DNA of 35,538 nucleotides. It comes from a virus. The notes under the pieces are model-generated. The model was not told the DNA's origin, did no database searches, and saw nothing but the letters and a program-made list of their open reading frames with translations. Below are positions 22,460 to 33,849 of this stretch, piece by piece. The stretch is from positions 1 through 35,538 of the IMG/VR virus record IMGVR_UViG_3300033148_002144; one strand, 5' to 3'. Made by a program: the position numbers and the translations under genes. Numbering within the stretch: the stretch's first letter is position 1; every line of letters begins with the position of its first letter.

Positions 22460-23443
22460 TTATTTCGTTGTAGTTCTCTTATAGTGTTTCTCTAGCCTAT
22501 GTTGATGTTTACTAATAAATAGCTTTTCGCTTACTTTTTTATTATTTTTAGCACTTAATGTACTTCTATGTTCTACCTCAAAAACCGATACTAAATCTTC
22601 ACACTCATAACTACTCATATAAACTTTATATTTACTCTTCTTAACCCATTCAAATAAAGCATCATGATCTATATCAAACTGATACTTTTCGGTACCTTTG
22701 TATGGAGGGTCTAAATATATAATTGTTTCATCTACTGGGGTATCAATCAAAACATCCTCATAACTATGATTATGTATGTCAAACCGCTCCAACTGCTGCA
22801 ACCGCTCCAACCGCTGCAACTGCTGCAACCGCTCCAACTGCTGCAACTGCTGCAACCGCTCCAACTGCTGCAACCGCTGCAACTGCTCCAACTGCTGCAA
22901 ATCAGTCCTGCCTGTGTACTTCTTAACATGTTTGGTAACTTTTAATCTCTCTTGTCCTAATAAACGCTTAGGTATAATAACTCTGTCATGTTTTCTATTA
23001 AATATCTTACGGCTATTCTCACAACTATTGATAATAATTTCGTGCAATAATCTCTTATCATCTTCAATATGTTTACCAAATATATATGAACTCTGGGCAT
23101 TACCAAAACTCCATATAACTTTACAAAGCCCTCCAAACCAACAATTATCACCCTTGTGTTTATGGAACGTATCTCTGTCTATCCATTGATAAAACTCATC
23201 CGTAACACCCTCATTTTTTACTTTGCGTAATAATTCAACAACACCTGTATTAAACTCATTGTATATGACCTTTTTAATCTGAGGTCTTTGTAATGCTTCA
23301 AAACTAACAGCACCCCCTCCACCAAATAAATCATAAATGTATTTAACATTAGGATTTTTCTCTATTATAAAATCTATTATCTTTGGTGCTAACTTTCTCT
23401 TACTTCCCATATATGGAAGCCCTAATCCTTTAATGTATTTCAT
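22460..23443 (-). CDS. N6-adenine DNA methyltransferase (D12/Dam class) with Leu-x-x repeat insertion
   Basis: The 327-residue enzyme transfers a methyl group from S-adenosylmethionine to adenine. Motifs in order are LPYMGSKRKL (motif X, about 9-18), DLFGGGG (motif I, 38-44) and DPPY (motif IV, 245-248). Between the target-recognition region and motif IV, residues 182-220 are 13 tandem Leu-x-x triplets made only of L, Q, E and R. The ATG at 23443 has AAGGG six bases upstream and starts at the conserved motif; a longer frame from 23488 is unlikely. It overlaps the membrane protein gene by 14 bases. Probable roles are protection from host restriction or marking of phage DNA. Target sequence cannot be read from the protein. 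Confidence 0.9.
   Translation of the reverse strand: MKYIKGLGLPYMGSKRKLAPKIIDFIIEKNPNVKYIYDLFGGGGAVSFEALQRPQIKKVIYNEFNTGVVELLRKVKNEGVTDEFYQWIDRDTFHKHKGDNCWFGGLCKVIWSFGNAQSSYIFGKHIEDDKRLLHEIIINSCENSRKIFNRKHDRVIIPKRLLGQERLKVTKHVKKYTGRTDLQQLEQLQRLQQLERLQQLQQLERLQQLQRLERLQQLERFDIHNHSYEDVLIDTPVDETIIYLDPPYKGTEKYQFDIDHDALFEWVKKSKYKVYMSSYECEDLVSVFEVEHRSTLSAKNNKKVSEKLFISKHQHRLEKHYKRTTTK
22784..22900 (-). repeat. 13 tandem 9-base units inside the adenine methyltransferase gene
   Basis: The coding-strand unit is TTG SAG CRG, repeated 13 times without interruption (117 bases). The first codon is always TTG (Leu). The second is CAG or GAG (Gln/Glu) and the third CAG or CGG (Gln/Arg). Only two of nine positions vary. 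The stretch is much richer in GC than its surroundings. Confidence 0.95.
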
Positions 23444-23642
23444 TAAAAACCCTTCTAATAATATATGCTCTAGCATAACTAGACACAAAAAATATACATG
23501 TAGATATACTAGCTACATAAAACTGATCTAAATCATCAAACAATGGAAATAATAAGAATACTATTAACCATCCCATCACGACACCTACTATCTGATTTAC
23601 CATAATCTCATAATGAGAATACTTTTTACTTTGCTTATTCAT
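23430..23642 (-). CDS. Small two-helix membrane protein (DUF7220-like)
   Basis: The 70-residue protein has a short polar start QSKKYSHYEI, a first membrane helix at about 15-35 (VNQIVGVVMGWLIVFLLFPL) and a second at about 42-58 (VASISTCIFFVSSYARAY). It ends in an Arg-rich IIRRVFNEIH. This is the plan of a small phage membrane protein family (DUF7220) whose ending reads 'SYalRRlF'. The function of the family is unknown. It starts on an ATGA overlap with the cytosine methyltransferase and runs into the start of the adenine methyltransferase. Confidence 0.75.
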   Translation of the reverse strand: MNKQSKKYSHYEIMVNQIVGVVMGWLIVFLLFPLFDDLDQFYVASISTCIFFVSSYARAYIIRRVFNEIH

Positions 23643-24901
23643 CTTACTAACACCTTAAACATATGTGCTACTACGTCAATGGTCCACCCATTACCCAACA
23701 TCTTATATCTTTGCGAATTACTTACAACATCAGTATAATTATCCTCAACTGTTTGAAGTCTTTCACATTCTAAAGGTGTAAGTTTTCTGTATGTTGGATT
23801 ACCACATAACACTTTAGGAATATTACCACTTCCCCCACCTGCTTTAAGTGTTCTAGTTTTAGGACTATCTTCACTGTATGTTTGTTGTTCCATAAACCAA
23901 CTTTTACCAGATGATCCTTTTTTTACATTTATTATATTATCAGATGCCTCTAGTAAAACTTTAGGTTCTCTGTGACCTCCTTGAGATGTTGTAAGTGTTG
24001 GAGCTTTACCACCACCACCATAAACCCTTTTGATTGACTCATTGCCTTTTATATCTGTTGCATCAGCTACATGATGGCAAGTATTATTTTCATTAAATTC
24101 TTTTAGTTCACAAGGTCTTAAAACCATTGATCTTTGTTTTTTCTCTATAGAGTTCCAAGCGACTGCACCACTGTATCTTGCTGTTAAACAAAACGATTTA
24201 CCTTTAGTTGTCATTTCTTCAGTGCTTACACCCCTTTCCAAAATATCTTTTAATAAAATATCTTTATCATCAGGTTGAGTAACATCAGGGATATTTGTCC
24301 AATAATATCTAACTCTATTTTGTGCAGACACTAAAGCACTATTAATCATAATAGGCTCAACACCCATAGCATCATTGAACATTGGAAGCCATTGTTTTGT
24401 AACTCTCACATTTTCTAAGAAAAAATATTTAGGTTGTATCGCCTTCCAAACTCTTACATATTCCCAAAACAAATAAGATTGACCATCAAATTCAAAACCA
24501 TCTTCTTTTAATTGTAGGTATTGTTCAAGAGTTGTTACATCTTTACCACACTTAGTAGATGAACCTTTCATTTTACCGGCAAGACTAAACCCTTGACATG
24601 GTGAGCCTCCTATTAACATTACTTTAGAGGTATCAATAATATATTTACCATTAAGTAATACCTCAAAATCACTTAGTCTTTCCATAGTAATATCTAAGAC
24701 ACTATCTATCTGAATAGTATTAGGGTAGTTGTGTTGGGTAACTTGCATAGCGTATTTATCTATCTCACTAGCGTAATAATTCTCTATATTGATACCTACA
24801 CGATTAAGTGCTATTTGTCCACATGACATACCGTCAAAGAGAGATAATACCGTAATCCCCTTGAGTCTTTTGAAGCTTCTAAGTTTACGTTGTTCACTCA
24901 T
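23639..24901 (-). CDS. C5-cytosine DNA methyltransferase
   Basis: The 420-residue enzyme has all main motifs of the family. They are VLSLFDGMSCGQIAL (I, SAM binding), GGSPCQGFSLAG (IV, catalytic Cys), ENVR (VI), QNRVRYYW (VIII), YRKLTPLECERLQ (IX) and MLGNGWTIDVV (X). The target-recognition domain lies between VIII and IX and contains the Gly-rich segments KRVYGGGGKAPTLTTSQGGH and LKAGGGSGN. The 'LFDGMSCG' start is shared with phage and DNMT3-like enzymes. It probably guards phage DNA from host enzymes together with the adenine methyltransferase two genes on. It starts after GGGAG and is coupled to the next gene by ATGA. Confidence 0.93.
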   Translation of the reverse strand: MSEQRKLRSFKRLKGITVLSLFDGMSCGQIALNRVGINIENYYASEIDKYAMQVTQHNYPNTIQIDSVLDITMERLSDFEVLLNGKYIIDTSKVMLIGGSPCQGFSLAGKMKGSSTKCGKDVTTLEQYLQLKEDGFEFDGQSYLFWEYVRVWKAIQPKYFFLENVRVTKQWLPMFNDAMGVEPIMINSALVSAQNRVRYYWTNIPDVTQPDDKDILLKDILERGVSTEEMTTKGKSFCLTARYSGAVAWNSIEKKQRSMVLRPCELKEFNENNTCHHVADATDIKGNESIKRVYGGGGKAPTLTTSQGGHREPKVLLEASDNIINVKKGSSGKSWFMEQQTYSEDSPKTRTLKAGGGSGNIPKVLCGNPTYRKLTPLECERLQTVEDNYTDVVSNSQRYKMLGNGWTIDVVAHMFKVLVR

Positions 24902-24988: not shown

Positions 24989-25762
24989 TTACATAGCACA
25001 TATACAAGCCTTTAAAGGTTCATCACTATACTTATTGTCTTTGTTAACCTTAAACTTATGTTCTAATTCTCTTAATGAGTAATCACGCTGCCATTGATTA
25101 TTAACTACCTTGTCTAATTGTTTTAATCTACGTTCTACACTTTTCATATACCGCCATGTTTTTTTAAAGAATTTCCACACAATATAATAACTTTGTAGGC
25201 TCATATAAGGACAAAAACCACACCCTGTACGTGTAAAATAATCATACAAAGGGTTAACCATATTTACACTCTCTAAATAAATATCCACATCACCTTCACA
25301 CCATCCCCATTCAATAAGAGGGTATCGCATAGAAGAGTCTTTTTGTATACGTTTTTCTTCACTTTTTGTGTAACCTATTAATTTAATATGAGCTGTTACA
25401 CCTAATGCTTTTAATAAATTATCCATAGGTTTTACTTTACTTTCTCTCTTCCAAAAACAAGGAGTGATTAACATAGGTAACCCTCTAGTGAACCCTTTAC
25501 GCTCTCCTTTAGTTACCTTACCAAAACACCAGCTATCAAATGTAGTTAAAGGTTTAGTAATAATAATTGATTTATTATATGTTTTCATTAAGTACCTATT
25601 GACTTTATCTAAATACTCATACATCACAGGTAGTTCACTCATAGTATTAGTAAAAACAATATGATCTATTCTATCCCCTCGCTCTAATGAACTTAATAAC
25701 ATAGCTGTGCTATCTCTACCTCCACTAATAGTGGCTATTACTGGTAAATTGCCTTTCTTCAT
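24989..25762 (-). CDS. PAPS-reductase-like PP-loop protein
   Basis: The 257-residue protein belongs to the adenine nucleotide alpha-hydrolase (PP-loop) superfamily, PAPS-reductase branch. The PP-loop SGGRDSTAM is at about 14-22, FTNTMSELP (the 'T.ElP' segment) at about 37-45, and a Cys pair GCGFCPYM lies in the second half. CxC is near the end (KACICAM). Phage homologues are common and their role is not settled. DndC, which installs phosphorothioate in DNA, shares the fold, but DndD and DndE are absent here. The start overlaps the primase stop by ATGA. Sulfur transfer to DNA or nucleotide is an inference from context. Confidence 0.8.
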   Translation of the reverse strand: MKKGNLPVIATISGGRDSTAMLLSSLERGDRIDHIVFTNTMSELPVMYEYLDKVNRYLMKTYNKSIIITKPLTTFDSWCFGKVTKGERKGFTRGLPMLITPCFWKRESKVKPMDNLLKALGVTAHIKLIGYTKSEEKRIQKDSSMRYPLIEWGWCEGDVDIYLESVNMVNPLYDYFTRTGCGFCPYMSLQSYYIVWKFFKKTWRYMKSVERRLKQLDKVVNNQWQRDYSLRELEHKFKVNKDNKYSDEPLKACICAM

Positions 25763-28642: not shown

Positions 28643-29188
28643 TTAGTTCCCTTTATCTTGTAAAGAGTCCATAGCTGTAAAAATAAGCTGTTTAAATTGA
28701 GACCAGAATACAAAAGCGTCTGTTGCCATCTTCTTTATATCAACATCACTAAAATTTTTCCATTCTACATTACTGTAATATTTACACCCTATTCGTGTGT
28801 GTTCTTTTTGAACTACCACTTGATAATAAGGTAAATTTATCTGAATAAAGTCAGCTCCACGCAAGTCAGCTTCACGCAAGTCAGCTCCACGCAAGTCAGC
28901 TCCACGCAAGTTAGCTCCATACAAGTCAGCTCCACGCAAGTTAGCTCCACGCAAGTCAGCTCCACGCAAGTCAGCTCCATACAAGTCAGCTCCATACAAG
29001 TCAGCTCCATACAAGTTAGCTCCATACAAGTTAGCTCCATACAAGTCAGCTTCACGCAAGTCAGCTCCATACAAGTTAGCTTCACGCAAGTCAGCTTCAC
29101 GCAAGTTAGCTTCACAAACTGTTTCTTTTATAGTTTCCTTTTTGCACTCGAATATAACTTTTAAATTCCATCTATTTAAAATTTGCAT
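28643..29188 (-). CDS. Pentapeptide-repeat protein
   Basis: The 181-residue protein has a 25-residue start, then 18 uninterrupted A(D/N)LXX pentapeptides (residues 26-115). They form a right-handed quadrilateral beta-helix of about four and a half coils. A C-terminal part with [20 protein letters not shown] and [13 protein letters not shown] is helical and reminiscent of the ends of other phage pentapeptide proteins. Pentapeptide helices such as MfpA and Qnr mimic DNA and bind gyrase. Whether this one does is unknown, and its strong regularity and Arg content are not typical of them. It overlaps the RHH regulator gene by one base, so both are expressed early. Confidence 0.88.
28844..29113 (-). 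repeat. 18 tandem 15-base units inside the pentapeptide gene
   Basis: The coding-strand unit is GRA GCT RAC TTG YRT, coding for (G/E)A(D/N)L(R/Y). Ala is GCT and Leu is TTG in almost every unit. Changes occur mainly at three places: GGA/GAA, GAC/AAC and CGT/TAT. The last unit diverges. This points to recent expansion by slippage or unequal exchange. Confidence 0.93.
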
Positions 29189-29515: not shown

Positions 29516-30460
29516 ATGTTTATAGAAGCTTATTTAATGGGTTTAAGAAATATGGTAGAGTCAAAGAATGACTTAGAGAGATTGCGTTTTATGCCTCAAC
29601 TGATAGAAGGGGGTGTAGTAACTGACTTTAAAGGTAATATGATTTTCAATACATTAGATTGTGAAGATACTATTATATTTGATGCTGACAGAGTAAACAA
29701 CACAAAGCGTTATACATCTGCACTTTCAAGAGATTACTTTGCTGCTTTAGATAAAGTAATACCTTTATTAACAGGAGGTACAAAAGGTACAGCTGAAGAA
29801 AAAACTGCACCACAAAAAGAGTATGGTCATGATATCTTAGCTTTAGTAGAAGTTGGAGACAAAAAAGGTTTACGTACACTACTTAAAGAGTACAAAAAAG
29901 TACAATGGTCCGCTTTAAATGAAGATGCTGTAGAAGATGCTATATTTGATCTTAATGATTGTGCTGCTGATAAAGATGTAAAAGAGGCTAGAGTTATTAT
30001 TACTGATCTAGTAGGTACTGATATCTGTGAAACTGAAACGCAACCAGTAAAAGAAATACAAAAAGCAGCTGAGACTATTGCTGCTTCTACTCCAGATAAT
30101 GAAGATGAAGCTGAACTACTACAAGACCTTGAAGAGGCTATAGCGGATGAAGATATAGAAGACGTAAAGTTATTGCTTAGAGAGTTAGGTAAAGAGCATC
30201 CTCGTTATGCTGAATTTGCAGCTGTACTAAATGCCCCAAAAGCTGAAGAACCTACAAATGATGTAGCGGATGATAATTTAATAACTGAGATATGTGAAGA
30301 TATTGATGCTGCTCTTGCAGATAATGATACAAAAGATGCTGTTAAGTTCTTAACTGAGTTAGCGGATGAAGCTGGTGTTGATTCAGATGTGTACAAAGAG
30401 TACAATTTAAAAGTGAACCCTCCTAAGCAAGAGCGTACACGTAGAAATAGAAGAGGTTAA
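29516..30460 (+). CDS. Acidic modular helical protein, first gene of the replication arm
   Basis: The 314-residue protein is not recognised. It starts with an ordered domain (residues 1-95), then has three related helical modules. They are recognisable by GHDILALVEVGDKKGLRTLL, LLQDLEEAIADEDIEDVKLL and EICEDIDAALADNDTKDAVK, each a pair of helices ending in a Leu-rich helix. Linkers are Glu/Pro/Ala-rich. The last residues are a basic tag ERTRRNRRG that is shared with the next protein. It precedes the ssDNA-binding protein by four bases, so the two probably act together in replication or recombination. A recombination mediator or scaffold is possible. Confidence 0.75.
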   Translation: MFIEAYLMGLRNMVESKNDLERLRFMPQLIEGGVVTDFKGNMIFNTLDCEDTIIFDADRVNNTKRYTSALSRDYFAALDKVIPLLTGGTKGTAEEKTAPQKEYGHDILALVEVGDKKGLRTLLKEYKKVQWSALNEDAVEDAIFDLNDCAADKDVKEARVIITDLVGTDICETETQPVKEIQKAAETIAASTPDNEDEAELLQDLEEAIADEDIEDVKLLLRELGKEHPRYAEFAAVLNAPKAEEPTNDVADDNLITEICEDIDAALADNDTKDAVKFLTELADEAGVDSDVYKEYNLKVNPPKQERTRRNRRG

Positions 30461-30464
30461 TATT

Positions 30465-31163
30465 ATGGCTATTGAAGCATTAAAAATAAATAGTGAATTG
30501 TGCCCTAAAGGGGCTTTTACATTCGCAGCTATTACGGGTTTAGGTATTGAAAACAAAAACACTAAAGAGAAAAAATATGAATATGTAGTAACTTTAGAGT
30601 TAGATGAAGTTGATGCTGGTCCACTTATGGATGAGATAGATGATTATATTGAAGATAACGCACCTAGAAAAAGTGAGTTATCTAAAGTACCTTATCAAAC
30701 ACGAGATGACTATGAAGGTATCCCAGAGGGTAAAGTATGGTTATATGCAAAAGCCTCTACTGAGATTGAAAATAAAAAAACAGGTGAGGTATCTGATAGA
30801 ATTATCAATGTGTATGATGCTGGAGGGAATAAAGTATCTTTACCTGAAGGTACAGGTATTGGTAAAGGCTCAACTGGTAAAGTATTTGGTAATATGACTG
30901 TATGGGAGCAAGGTAAAGAGTACGGGGCTACTATATGGCTAACGGGTGTTCAAATAGCTGAGTTTGTACCTTATGCGTTTGAAGAGGATGTACAAGCTAT
31001 GGAGGGCGGAGGTAGTTTTAAAGGCTTCGATACCCCTCAACTTGAAAAAGATGAAGAGTCTACAGAGGAAGCACCTGCTCGTACACGTAGAAGTCGTAGA
31101 GATAGAGTTGTGGAAACTGAAGATGAAGCACCTGCTCGTACACGTAGAAGTCGTAGAGATTAA
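30465..31163 (+). CDS. ssDNA-binding protein, T7 gp2.5-like
   Basis: The 232-residue protein has the beta-barrel pattern of phage ssDNA-binding proteins (DUF2815/gp2.5-like). It begins with KGAFTFAAITGLGIENKNTK, then YEYVVTLELDEVDAGPLMDE and later DRIINVYDAGGNKV. GKVFGNMTVWEQGKEYGATI, LTGVQIAEFVPYAF and the Gly-rich stretch near 183 complete the core. It coats single strands and recruits polymerase. Instead of the usual acidic tail it ends in two copies of EAPARTRRSRRD separated by an acidic linker. The previous gene ends in the same kind of basic tag. A hairpin (31171-31197) follows the stop. Confidence 0.82.
   Translation: MAIEALKINSELCPKGAFTFAAITGLGIENKNTKEKKYEYVVTLELDEVDAGPLMDEIDDYIEDNAPRKSELSKVPYQTRDDYEGIPEGKVWLYAKASTEIENKKTGEVSDRIINVYDAGGNKVSLPEGTGIGKGSTGKVFGNMTVWEQGKEYGATIWLTGVQIAEFVPYAFEEDVQAMEGGGSFKGFDTPQLEKDEESTEEAPARTRRSRRDRVVETEDEAPARTRRSRRD
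31068..31160 (+). repeat. Two exact 36-base repeats at the end of the ssDNA-binding protein gene
   Basis: Bases 31068-31103 and 31125-31160 are identical and code for EAPARTRRSRRD. Period is 57 bases (19 residues). Thirteen bases of the unit (CGTACACGTAGAA) also occur at 30434-30446 at the end of the upstream gene. Confidence 0.95.
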
Positions 31164-31708: not shown

Positions 31709-31900
31709 ATGTTTATATCAGTACAGTTTCATTCAGATTTCACAAAAGATTATACTTATATATGTAAAAGAAGTATAAAAGTAGGGGATTTTGTAGTAGT
31801 TCCTACACCTACAGGTAATACAGTAGCTAAAGTAACTAGAGTGGGTTTAAAGACTCCATCATTTCAATGTAAAGAGATTATTAAGAAGGTAAGGTTATGA
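31709..31900 (+). CDS. Small beta-barrel protein (63 residues)
   Basis: The protein starts MFISVQFHSDFTKDYTYICK and continues with KVGDFVVVPTPTGNTVAKVT. The 'vGDfVVVPt..gn.vAkV' pattern is that of small SH3/KOW-like barrels found in many phages next to replication genes. No enzyme residues are present. It overlaps the DNA polymerase by ATGA, so the two are made together; an accessory role is possible. Confidence 0.7.
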   Translation: MFISVQFHSDFTKDYTYICKRSIKVGDFVVVPTPTGNTVAKVTRVGLKTPSFQCKEIIKKVRL

Positions 31901-33849
31901 TTTATGTATATGATATAGAAGTACATCCTAATTATATGTTAGTAGGTTTTAAGGATGTAAAAACAGGACTTAAAAGACAATATGAAACTTTTAATAATCC
32001 TTTTACGGGTTTACAAATAAGATGTATAAAAAGAATTATCAAATTACATAAATTAGTAGGTTTTAATTCAAAGTCTTATGACGACCCTATTTTAACTTTA
32101 ATGTTACAAGGTAAAAATACTACTCAAATATACAAAAAATCTAAATACATAATTGAAAACCAGATAAAATATTGGCAGGTATATAGAGAGTTAAGTGTAG
32201 AAAAATACTTTGAATCTATTGACCTTATAGATGTAGCACCAGGTCAAGCATCATTAAAACTATATGGTGCTAGATTAAACTCACAAAAACTACAAGATTT
32301 ACCTTATGACCCTCACGATGATGTAACAATAGATGAAGCTTTAGAGGTTAAAAAATATAATGTTAATGATCTAAACTTAACACTTAATTTATATAATAAA
32401 CTTTTACCTATGTTAGATTTAAGAAGAAAAATAGGTAAAAAATATAATATTGATGTTATGAGTAAATCAGATGCACAAATAGCTGAGTCTATATTTAGAG
32501 AAGAGTTAAGTAAAAAAGGTGTGACGGTAAAAAGAGGCGACACTAATAAAAATATAAGATATAAAGCACCTAAAGTTATACAATTCAGAGATAGTATATT
32601 AAACTGGATAGTAGAAGAGTTAGAAAATACTACTATTAAATTAGGAGATAATGGGGCACCTTTATTACCTGACTGGTTAAAAAAAGAAACTATACAAATA
32701 GGGAGTACTACATATAATATAGGATTAGGTGGGTTACACTCTCAAGAAAAATCATTAGTTATCATACCTAAAGAAGATGAGATATTATCTAACGTAGATG
32801 TAGCTAGTTATTATCCTTCCTTGATTATTGATCTAAAATTATACCCTGAACAATTAACTAAAACATTCTTAAAGGTATACGCTAGTATTAAAGCTCAGAG
32901 ATTACAAGCTAAAAAAGACTCAAAAGATATGTCATTATCTAAAGAACAAAGAGAAGAAGCAAAAGTAACGGATGCTGTTTTAAAAATTACACTAAATGGT
33001 AGTTATGGTAAGTTTGGAAATAAATATAGTTTTTTATATTCCCCTGATTTATTATTAACGGTCACATTTACGGGACAATTATATTTACTTATGTTGATTG
33101 AAGAGTTAGAATATCACGGTTTTAAAGTTGTATCATCTAATACGGATGGTGTAGAGGTTCTAAGAGATAAGGGTATATTAAGTAGAAAAAAACTAGAACG
33201 TATAGTATCTGAATGGGAATCTAAAACTAACATGGTAATGGAATACGGTACATATAACGCTCTTTTTGCAAGAGATGTTAATAATTATATTGCGGTGTAC
33301 CCTAACGGTGAAGCAAAAGCTAAAGGTGTGTATATTGACCCTGAAGAGAGAAAACCTATACTTGAAAAAAATAATGAATATCCTATTGTTTTTGAAGCAA
33401 TTAGGGATTATTTATCTAAAAATATACCCATGGAAGAAACCTTATATAATTGTAAAGATGTAGCTAGATTTACATCTAGTAGAAATGTAAAAGGTGGTGC
33501 TGTATTTTATGAAGGTAAAAAATTATCTAATACAGATGAGTATAATAATTACATATCTAAACAACTTAAACAACTTAAACAAAATAAAGCATTAGAAAAA
33601 AGAAATGACAATCATCACAAAGAATTAGTATTAAAATCAAAAGATACTAAATATCTGGGTAAAGTTGTTAGATGGTATTACTCAATAGATGGTAAACAAA
33701 TATTTTATAAAACAGGTAATAAAGTACCTAAAAGTGATGGTGCTAAACCTATGATGGATTTAACGGATTACATACCAAAAGATTTAGATTATGATAAGTA
33801 TTTACAGTTATGTGATGAACATTTACAAGATTTAGGAGTAAAACTATGA
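31897..33849 (+). CDS. DNA polymerase, family B-like, with 3'-5' exonuclease
   Basis: The 650-residue enzyme copies the phage genome. The N-terminal proofreading domain has YDIEV (Asp6, Glu8), GFNSKSYDDP (55-64) and YNVND (154-158). The palm has motif A VDVASYYPS (300-308), motif B KITLNGSYG (363-371) and motif C SSNTDG (413-418). A GGLHS segment (278-282) precedes motif A. Motif C has Asn-Thr-Asp instead of Asp-Thr-Asp, as in some divergent phage polymerases. It is shorter than T4 or RB69 polymerase and lacks terminal-protein insertions seen in phi29. It is flanked by ATGA overlaps on both sides. Confidence 0.9.
   Translation: MIYVYDIEVHPNYMLVGFKDVKTGLKRQYETFNNPFTGLQIRCIKRIIKLHKLVGFNSKSYDDPILTLMLQGKNTTQIYKKSKYIIENQIKYWQVYRELSVEKYFESIDLIDVAPGQASLKLYGARLNSQKLQDLPYDPHDDVTIDEALEVKKYNVNDLNLTLNLYNKLLPMLDLRRKIGKKYNIDVMSKSDAQIAESIFREELSKKGVTVKRGDTNKNIRYKAPKVIQFRDSILNWIVEELENTTIKLGDNGAPLLPDWLKKETIQIGSTTYNIGLGGLHSQEKSLVIIPKEDEILSNVDVASYYPSLIIDLKLYPEQLTKTFLKVYASIKAQRLQAKKDSKDMSLSKEQREEAKVTDAVLKITLNGSYGKFGNKYSFLYSPDLLLTVTFTGQLYLLMLIEELEYHGFKVVSSNTDGVEVLRDKGILSRKKLERIVSEWESKTNMVMEYGTYNALFARDVNNYIAVYPNGEAKAKGVYIDPEERKPILEKNNEYPIVFEAIRDYLSKNIPMEETLYNCKDVARFTSSRNVKGGAVFYEGKKLSNTDEYNNYISKQLKQLKQNKALEKRNDNHHKELVLKSKDTKYLGKVVRWYYSIDGKQIFYKTGNKVPKSDGAKPMMDLTDYIPKDLDYDKYLQLCDEHLQDLGVKL

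Follow-up and report, generated by a model that had tools for sequence, protein, structure and literature searches.

The window analyzed here is the whole 35,538-base stretch of an uncultured virus record in IMG/VR (Table 1). Within it, the gene of an acidic protein (named P1) is directly adjacent to that of a gp2.5-like ssDNA-binding protein (SSB), with no gene in between. A family B DNA polymerase (PolB), which was used as the anchor for locating relatives, and a 5'-3' exonuclease are encoded downstream of the SSB, which places the SSB in a replication gene cluster, as the gene order of gp2.5-like SSBs would have it; P1 is assigned to replication by position only. Just upstream of P1, the opposite strand encodes a protein made up largely of pentapeptide-like repeats (28643-29188, -). 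Other genes of the window include one that by eye resembles a DNA adenine methyltransferase and holds an inserted run of QLERLQQL-type repeats (22460-23488, -), and a PP-loop gene, PAPS reductase-like by eye (24989-25762, -), near a cytosine methyltransferase-like gene (23639-24901).

Table 1 Features of the P1-SSB locus and their positions in the window.
Feature	Position	Strand	Basis or remark
Window, 35,538 bases	IMG/VR IMGVR_UViG_3300033148_002144, positions 1 to 35,538		uncultured virus record
P1, acidic protein of 314 aa	29516..30460	+	ORF
P1 C-terminal tag ERTRRNRRG	30431..30457	+	13-mer CGTACACGTAGAA from 30434; relative ERTRRTRRD
gp2.5-like ssDNA-binding protein (SSB), 232 aa	30465..31163	+	phrog_112, PF21265 and PDB 1je5 profile matches
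SSB tag copy 1, EAPARTRRSRRD	31068..31103	+	exact 36-base repeat
Linker RVVETED separating the SSB tag copies	31104..31124	+	sequence; tail charges clustered in blocks, p=0.003
SSB tag copy 2, EAPARTRRSRRD, C-terminal	31125..31160	+	exact 36-base repeat
Family B DNA polymerase (PolB), candidate partner	31897..33849	+	phrog_1252, E=5.8e-169

Identity and predicted structure of P1 and SSB

Profile comparison places the SSB with the gp2.5-like (T7-type) proteins, its binding of ssDNA being putative. The protein matches the gp2.5-like family phrog_112 (E=1.6e-11) and the Pfam T7 SSB family PF21265 (E=2.5e-5, where its 24.4 bits lie just below the 27-bit cut-off), and a 5-member profile of its branch matches T7 gp2.5 (PDB 1je5) at E=7.1e-5. 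The AlphaFold2 model of the SSB, built on a shallow alignment of 5 sequences, reached a mean pLDDT of 38. The model of P1 is helical, with a mean pLDDT of 69 and low confidence at residues 305-312; P1 is predicted to consist of an N-terminal mixed domain followed by helical-hairpin modules with acidic linkers and a disordered end. Six replication proteins were compared by net charge, and P1 has the most negative value (-31); PolB has +13 and the helicase +19.

Family searches with P1 gave no convincing match. Homology of P1 to the small coil protein of the Enc34 ORF3 type, which it resembles by eye, is not supported (best domain score 3.3, whereas shuffled sequences reach 5.7), and an hhalign comparison of P1 with the coil family returned E 0.17 and a probability of 0.2%. 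Homology to the genes in the same place in three relatives (L086, L090, and L134), again promising by eye, is not supported either (sequence score 2.3, shuffles up to 10.1).

A basic tag at the C-termini of P1 and SSB

The earlier note had described a basic tag at both C-termini and related DNA units beneath it, and these descriptions hold: P1 ends in ERTRRNRRG, the SSB ends in two copies of EAPARTRRSRRD encoded by an exact 36-base repeat, and the 13 bases shared by the units, CGTACACGTAGAA, lie at 30434, 31080, and 31137 and at no other plus-strand site of the window. The spread of the tag by duplication, also proposed there, is plain inside the SSB. Between P1 and the SSB, a common DNA origin of the tags is suggested rather than proven, because the RTRR stretches of the two proteins use the same codons (CGT ACA CGT AGA; P=0.0087 by window codon usage, and P=0.025 for two RTRR stretches agreeing in all codons, whichever these are). 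Among window ORFs of at least 60 aa, P1 and the SSB are the only ones with the pattern [RK]x[RK][RK]x[RK][RK] in their last 35 residues, and the last 12 residues carry a net charge of +5 in P1 and +3 in the SSB. The SSB tail keeps an internal acidic stretch that alternates with the basic blocks, and its charges cluster in blocks (p=0.003 relative to shuffled sequences).

Conservation and distribution of the tag

A search of viral contigs found one identical phage and one relative, L015, at 80% SSB identity. The L015 P1 keeps the tag as ERTRRTRRD, and the L015 SSB keeps both copies as RSRRSRRD and RTRRSRRV with varied linkers, so that absence from all relatives, which the earlier note would have counted against the tag, does not apply, and the copy number is unchanged. 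The tag is real and conserved in a relative, and its conservation at 80% identity is more than chance. The exact 36-base repeat and the shared 13-mer would also arise if the tails were low-complexity repeats that grow and shrink by slippage; matching tails would then have little function and stem from copying between genes or from genome composition. We hold this explanation to be decidedly unlikely, since Arg is kept at 80% identity while one Ser of the second copy is coded differently in L015 (TCA versus AGT).

The distribution of the motif was counted over 124 sources, with duplicate SSB sequences collapsed to 63. RRSRR[DE] occurs in 4 of the 63 distinct SSBs, two of them from the window phage and L015, while all 4049 other mechanical ORFs lack it; the wide spread through unrelated low-complexity ends that would have spoken against the tag was not seen. 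The looser RR[STN]RR occurs in 5/63 SSBs and in 17/4049 other ORFs, P1 among the 17. Searches by tblastn with the SSB and with P1 found no match at E 0.01 in 50,697 phage records, and an exact-pattern scan for the DNA tag in viral contigs matched only the identical contig.

Basic ends in the gp2.5-like SSB branch

Further SSBs were collected by PolB-anchored scans, which yielded 78 new viral loci, 29 genome loci, and 79 more viral loci (some contigs repeated), and by a search that matched 13 phage records, 7 of which were examined. Few prophages came from PF10991 searches of two bacterial classes (5/385 and 4/369 genomes).

The earlier note took the tag to reverse the rule that gp2.5-like proteins end in an acidic tail. 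The basic tip is confirmed: instead of staying acidic to a terminal aromatic or hydrophobic residue, the window SSB ends in RRSRRD, and the L015 SSB, ending in RRSRRV, is likewise not acidic to the end. A simple reversal is nevertheless rejected, as the acidic stretch persists and all 12 SSBs examined in the branch end basic. This set consists of the window, L015, L086, L090, L134, and seven isolate or assembled-phage SSBs; after the acidic stretch, the ends are Arg-rich, poly-Lys (L086, L090, and L134), PRL (ct1fd225, ctXG1253, PH1, VPMS1, and KF-1), PRI (Amaethon), or KRRF (NrS-1). Ending basic is thus the usual state of this branch, and an acidic-to-the-end rule does not set the window SSB apart, because the other ten SSBs depart from it too. 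What is special in the window is the Arg tag together with its sharing with P1, not the basic end. The poly-Lys relatives resemble the window in their branch, in the order of an acidic stretch and a basic end, and in a basic-ended neighbor in the place of P1, but they use Lys rather than Arg and their neighbor has no separate tag. Conserved PRL/PRI ends were observed in gp2.5-like SSBs accompanied by other polymerases (L124, L125, L127, L128, L129, and L130).

The presence of poly-Lys and Arg tails in one branch conserves charge and not sequence, which is compatible with a direct action on nucleic acid: the Arg-rich tails would make the SSB and P1 bind DNA (or RNA) more tightly and so compensate for the acidic stretch, a competitor of ssDNA in the binding groove. 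An Arg-rich RNA-binding motif like that of lambda N was also considered as a possible reading. According to PMC5686142, Enc34 ORF6 without its acidic tail binds ssDNA with unchanged affinity and gains dsDNA binding, so the charge of the tail governs which DNA is bound. We judge such a role unlikely as the explanation, if still credible, since it accounts neither for the alternation of basic and acidic blocks nor for the phage-by-phage sharing of tips among SSB, coil protein, and nuclease presented below.

Basic and mixed-charge tails in other SSBs

In a larger set of DUF2815-like SSBs the ends are mostly acidic. Among the 127 distinct SSBs collected here (duplicates collapsed before counting), 16 have a basic block after residue 170, in several cases as an Arg/Asp-Glu repeat array. 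The SSB of L038 (IMG/VR 2740892185_000002) has a long tail with units of the DDRSSRRSRRSRDDEDE type and an alternation of Arg and Asp/Glu blocks; that of L029 (3300018877_000005) has a long tail of the same alternation ending in ERPARRSRRDHDDV; and Loktanella phage pCB2051-A and others have long tails of Arg blocks alternating with Asp/Glu blocks. The PARRSRRD-like blocks set between acidic ones in these three phages are like those of the window, but their arrays are much longer and, unlike the window tail, finish in an acidic-hydrophobic tip. At L038:4940-5965, L029:5060-5938, and L131:2528-3556, the SSB tails exceed 100 residues and contain many alternating Arg-rich and Asp-Glu-rich units. 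The large arrays of L038, L029, and the Loktanella phage are again what slippage could produce.

The charge blocks are segregated in 11 of 12 tails tested, the window included and L114 being the exception, and the block is present in several copies per tail. These features would suit a replication compartment in which alternating charge blocks bring the SSB and P1 together by co-condensation without a specific receptor. We consider this quite unlikely: the window tail is short (43 residues), and in relatives specific terminal residues co-vary (see below), a match that bulk charge does not need.

The coil proteins of these phages may also carry the block. Within its last 24 residues, the coil protein has a basic block in 5/11 phages with a basic-block SSB and in 0/75 others, where the 75 are distinct sequences not thinned by identity and the 5/11 includes L134, whose coil assignment is weak (E=0.076), as well as the near-duplicates L148 and L149; without L134 and one duplicate, the count is 3/9. 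The clear cases, L029 (PARSRRDDDV), L038 (APKARRRSNDDL), and L148 (PPRRRRSEEDDDV), parallel the pair of P1 and SSB in the window, and the Arg block is weak in the coil protein of Loktanella phage pCB2051-A.

Matching C-terminal tips, phage by phage

In the phages used for tip comparison, the gene order is small upstream coil protein, DUF2800 nuclease, SSB, and PolB. The last six residues were scored with BLOSUM62 against 20,000 permutations, and the 99 loci with SSB and coil protein were thinned to 50 at 70% SSB identity (71 at 90%, 29 at 50%). The tips of SSB and coil protein match with a mean score of 3.56 versus -1.42 +/- 0.79, no permutation of the 20,000 being as high (n=50), and the last residue is identical in 21 of the 50 phages where 6.6 were expected; the match persists at the 50% cut (P=0.0001, n=29). 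The match between SSB and nuclease is weaker (P=0.0005, n=48), and that between coil protein and nuclease has P=0.0012 (n=48). For the control pair of SSB and PolB, the tip gave P=0.015 and the last residue P=0.00035 (n=43), or 0.12 and 0.02 at the 50% cut (n=24); for coil protein and PolB the values are 0.09 and 0.002 (n=43). Because the SSB-PolB control also shows a signal, though a weaker one, part of the tip signal is attributed to phylogeny or genome-wide effects. The SSB-coil match is far stronger than this background. Two acidic tips occur together in 24 phages, and 17 of these have the same last residue on both, where 4.9 were expected, which speaks against slippage or genome composition as the cause. 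Among the approximately 54 ORFs per locus, the coil protein ranks first in tip similarity to the SSB in 13/50 phages and within the top three in 21/50. Many coil proteins have no tail, so tip sharing is common but not universal.

Individual phages illustrate the pattern. The SSB and coil protein end in ..PARRSRRDHDDV and ..PARSRRDDDV in L029, ..RRRRDDDL and ..ARRRSNDDL in L038, ..EEEM and ..DEDM in Kokobel1, both in ..DEDGLI in PspYZU01, and both in ..DDVV in L147. The nuclease joins them in Bradyrhizobium L122 (SSB ..DDLLG, coil protein ..DDLLS, nuclease ..SDLLG) and in Enc34 (..DEDEV and ..EEEEV for SSB and coil protein, ..DDDEV for the nuclease). In Aeromonas phage pAEv1812 (L226, L230), 9 of 72 other CDS score at least 18 to the acidic-Ile tip of the SSB, namely the helicase, RdgC, DUF2800, primase, a DUF1441 protein, the coil protein, a putative 3'-5' exoribonuclease, a RES-domain protein, and a hypothetical protein of the structural region; with the SSB tips of 49 other phages as queries, the number of such CDS averaged 0.73 and never exceeded 4. 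In PspYZU01, 4/58 CDS score at least 12 to the SSB tip, a weaker case, as other tips (mean 0.71) also reach a maximum of 4. In KF-1 and NrS-1, no neighbor clearly carries the SSB tip among the 25 and 21 CDS compared. A full-text search of the CC literature found no earlier report of phage-specific shared tips.

Discussion

We tentatively favor a reading of the tag as a disordered tail that replication proteins share and that docks them electrostatically, analogous to that of T7 but basic here, while regarding it as slightly more apt to be wrong than right. Docking tails with acidic tips are already known from T7, where the acidic tails are exchangeable. The negatively charged C-terminal tails of T7 gp4 bind basic patches of gp5, as PMC8835902 and PMC8472574 describe, and PMC5686142 implicates the tail of gp2.5 in contacts with the polymerase and the primase-helicase. 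The window resembles gp2.5 and gp4 of T7 in that its SSB falls into the same superfamily by profile and one kind of tail occurs on two replication proteins; a C-terminal peptide of the same kind on the SSB and a second protein is seen both in the window and in L015. It differs in that the T7 tails are acidic, whereas the window tail is basic, with net-positive ends on both proteins, duplicated, and devoid of a terminal hydrophobic residue. Similarly, Enc34 ORF6 (DUF2815, PF10991) is an SSB whose gene is preceded by a small gene and followed by that of a family B polymerase, and it has its tip in common with ORF3 and ORF5, as the window SSB has its tag in common with P1; the Enc34 tips are acidic, and in the window P1 and the SSB are immediate neighbors.

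Matching tails probably serve assembly with each other or with a common partner. In a docking arrangement, the same Arg-rich peptide would draw P1 and the SSB to one acidic surface, thereby coupling SSB-coated ssDNA to the remaining phage replication apparatus, and the two SSB tag copies, alternating with acidic blocks, could provide several weak contacts. The first-candidate surface would be the acidic helical modules of P1 (P1-P1 and SSB-P1 contacts), because P1 is strongly negative (-31) while PolB (+13) and the helicase (+19) are positive; a third protein is the alternative. The charge of P1 fits an acidic partner for the tag, and docking is supported by the retention of both tags in a pair of phages whose SSBs are 80% identical. 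The protein in P1's place in the poly-Lys phages is not acidic (+7, -4, and 0), which disfavors P1 as a conserved receptor. We infer the docking, its partner, and the notion that the basic tail of the window does the job of acidic tips elsewhere.

The window tag may be one conspicuous instance of a more general matching of tips among the replication proteins of a phage; the link is by analogy only, because homology of P1 to the coil protein failed the shuffle controls. A wider and more doubtful, though possible, proposal is that replication proteins of many tailed phages bear a phage-specific C-terminal 'password' that co-evolves with one receptor and is Arg-rich in the window lineage. Its bearers would be the SSB, the small upstream protein, and the DUF2800 nuclease, sometimes joined by the helicase, primase, RdgC, and terminase-region proteins. 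Were this true, even the charge of the password could flip, as the Arg-rich version shows, and the basic version would show a docking code independent of acidic charge. A testable role would fall to the small protein encoded upstream (Enc34 ORF3 type, P1), and if matching tips are general and phage-specific, the tip alone could assign unknown proteins to the replication apparatus.
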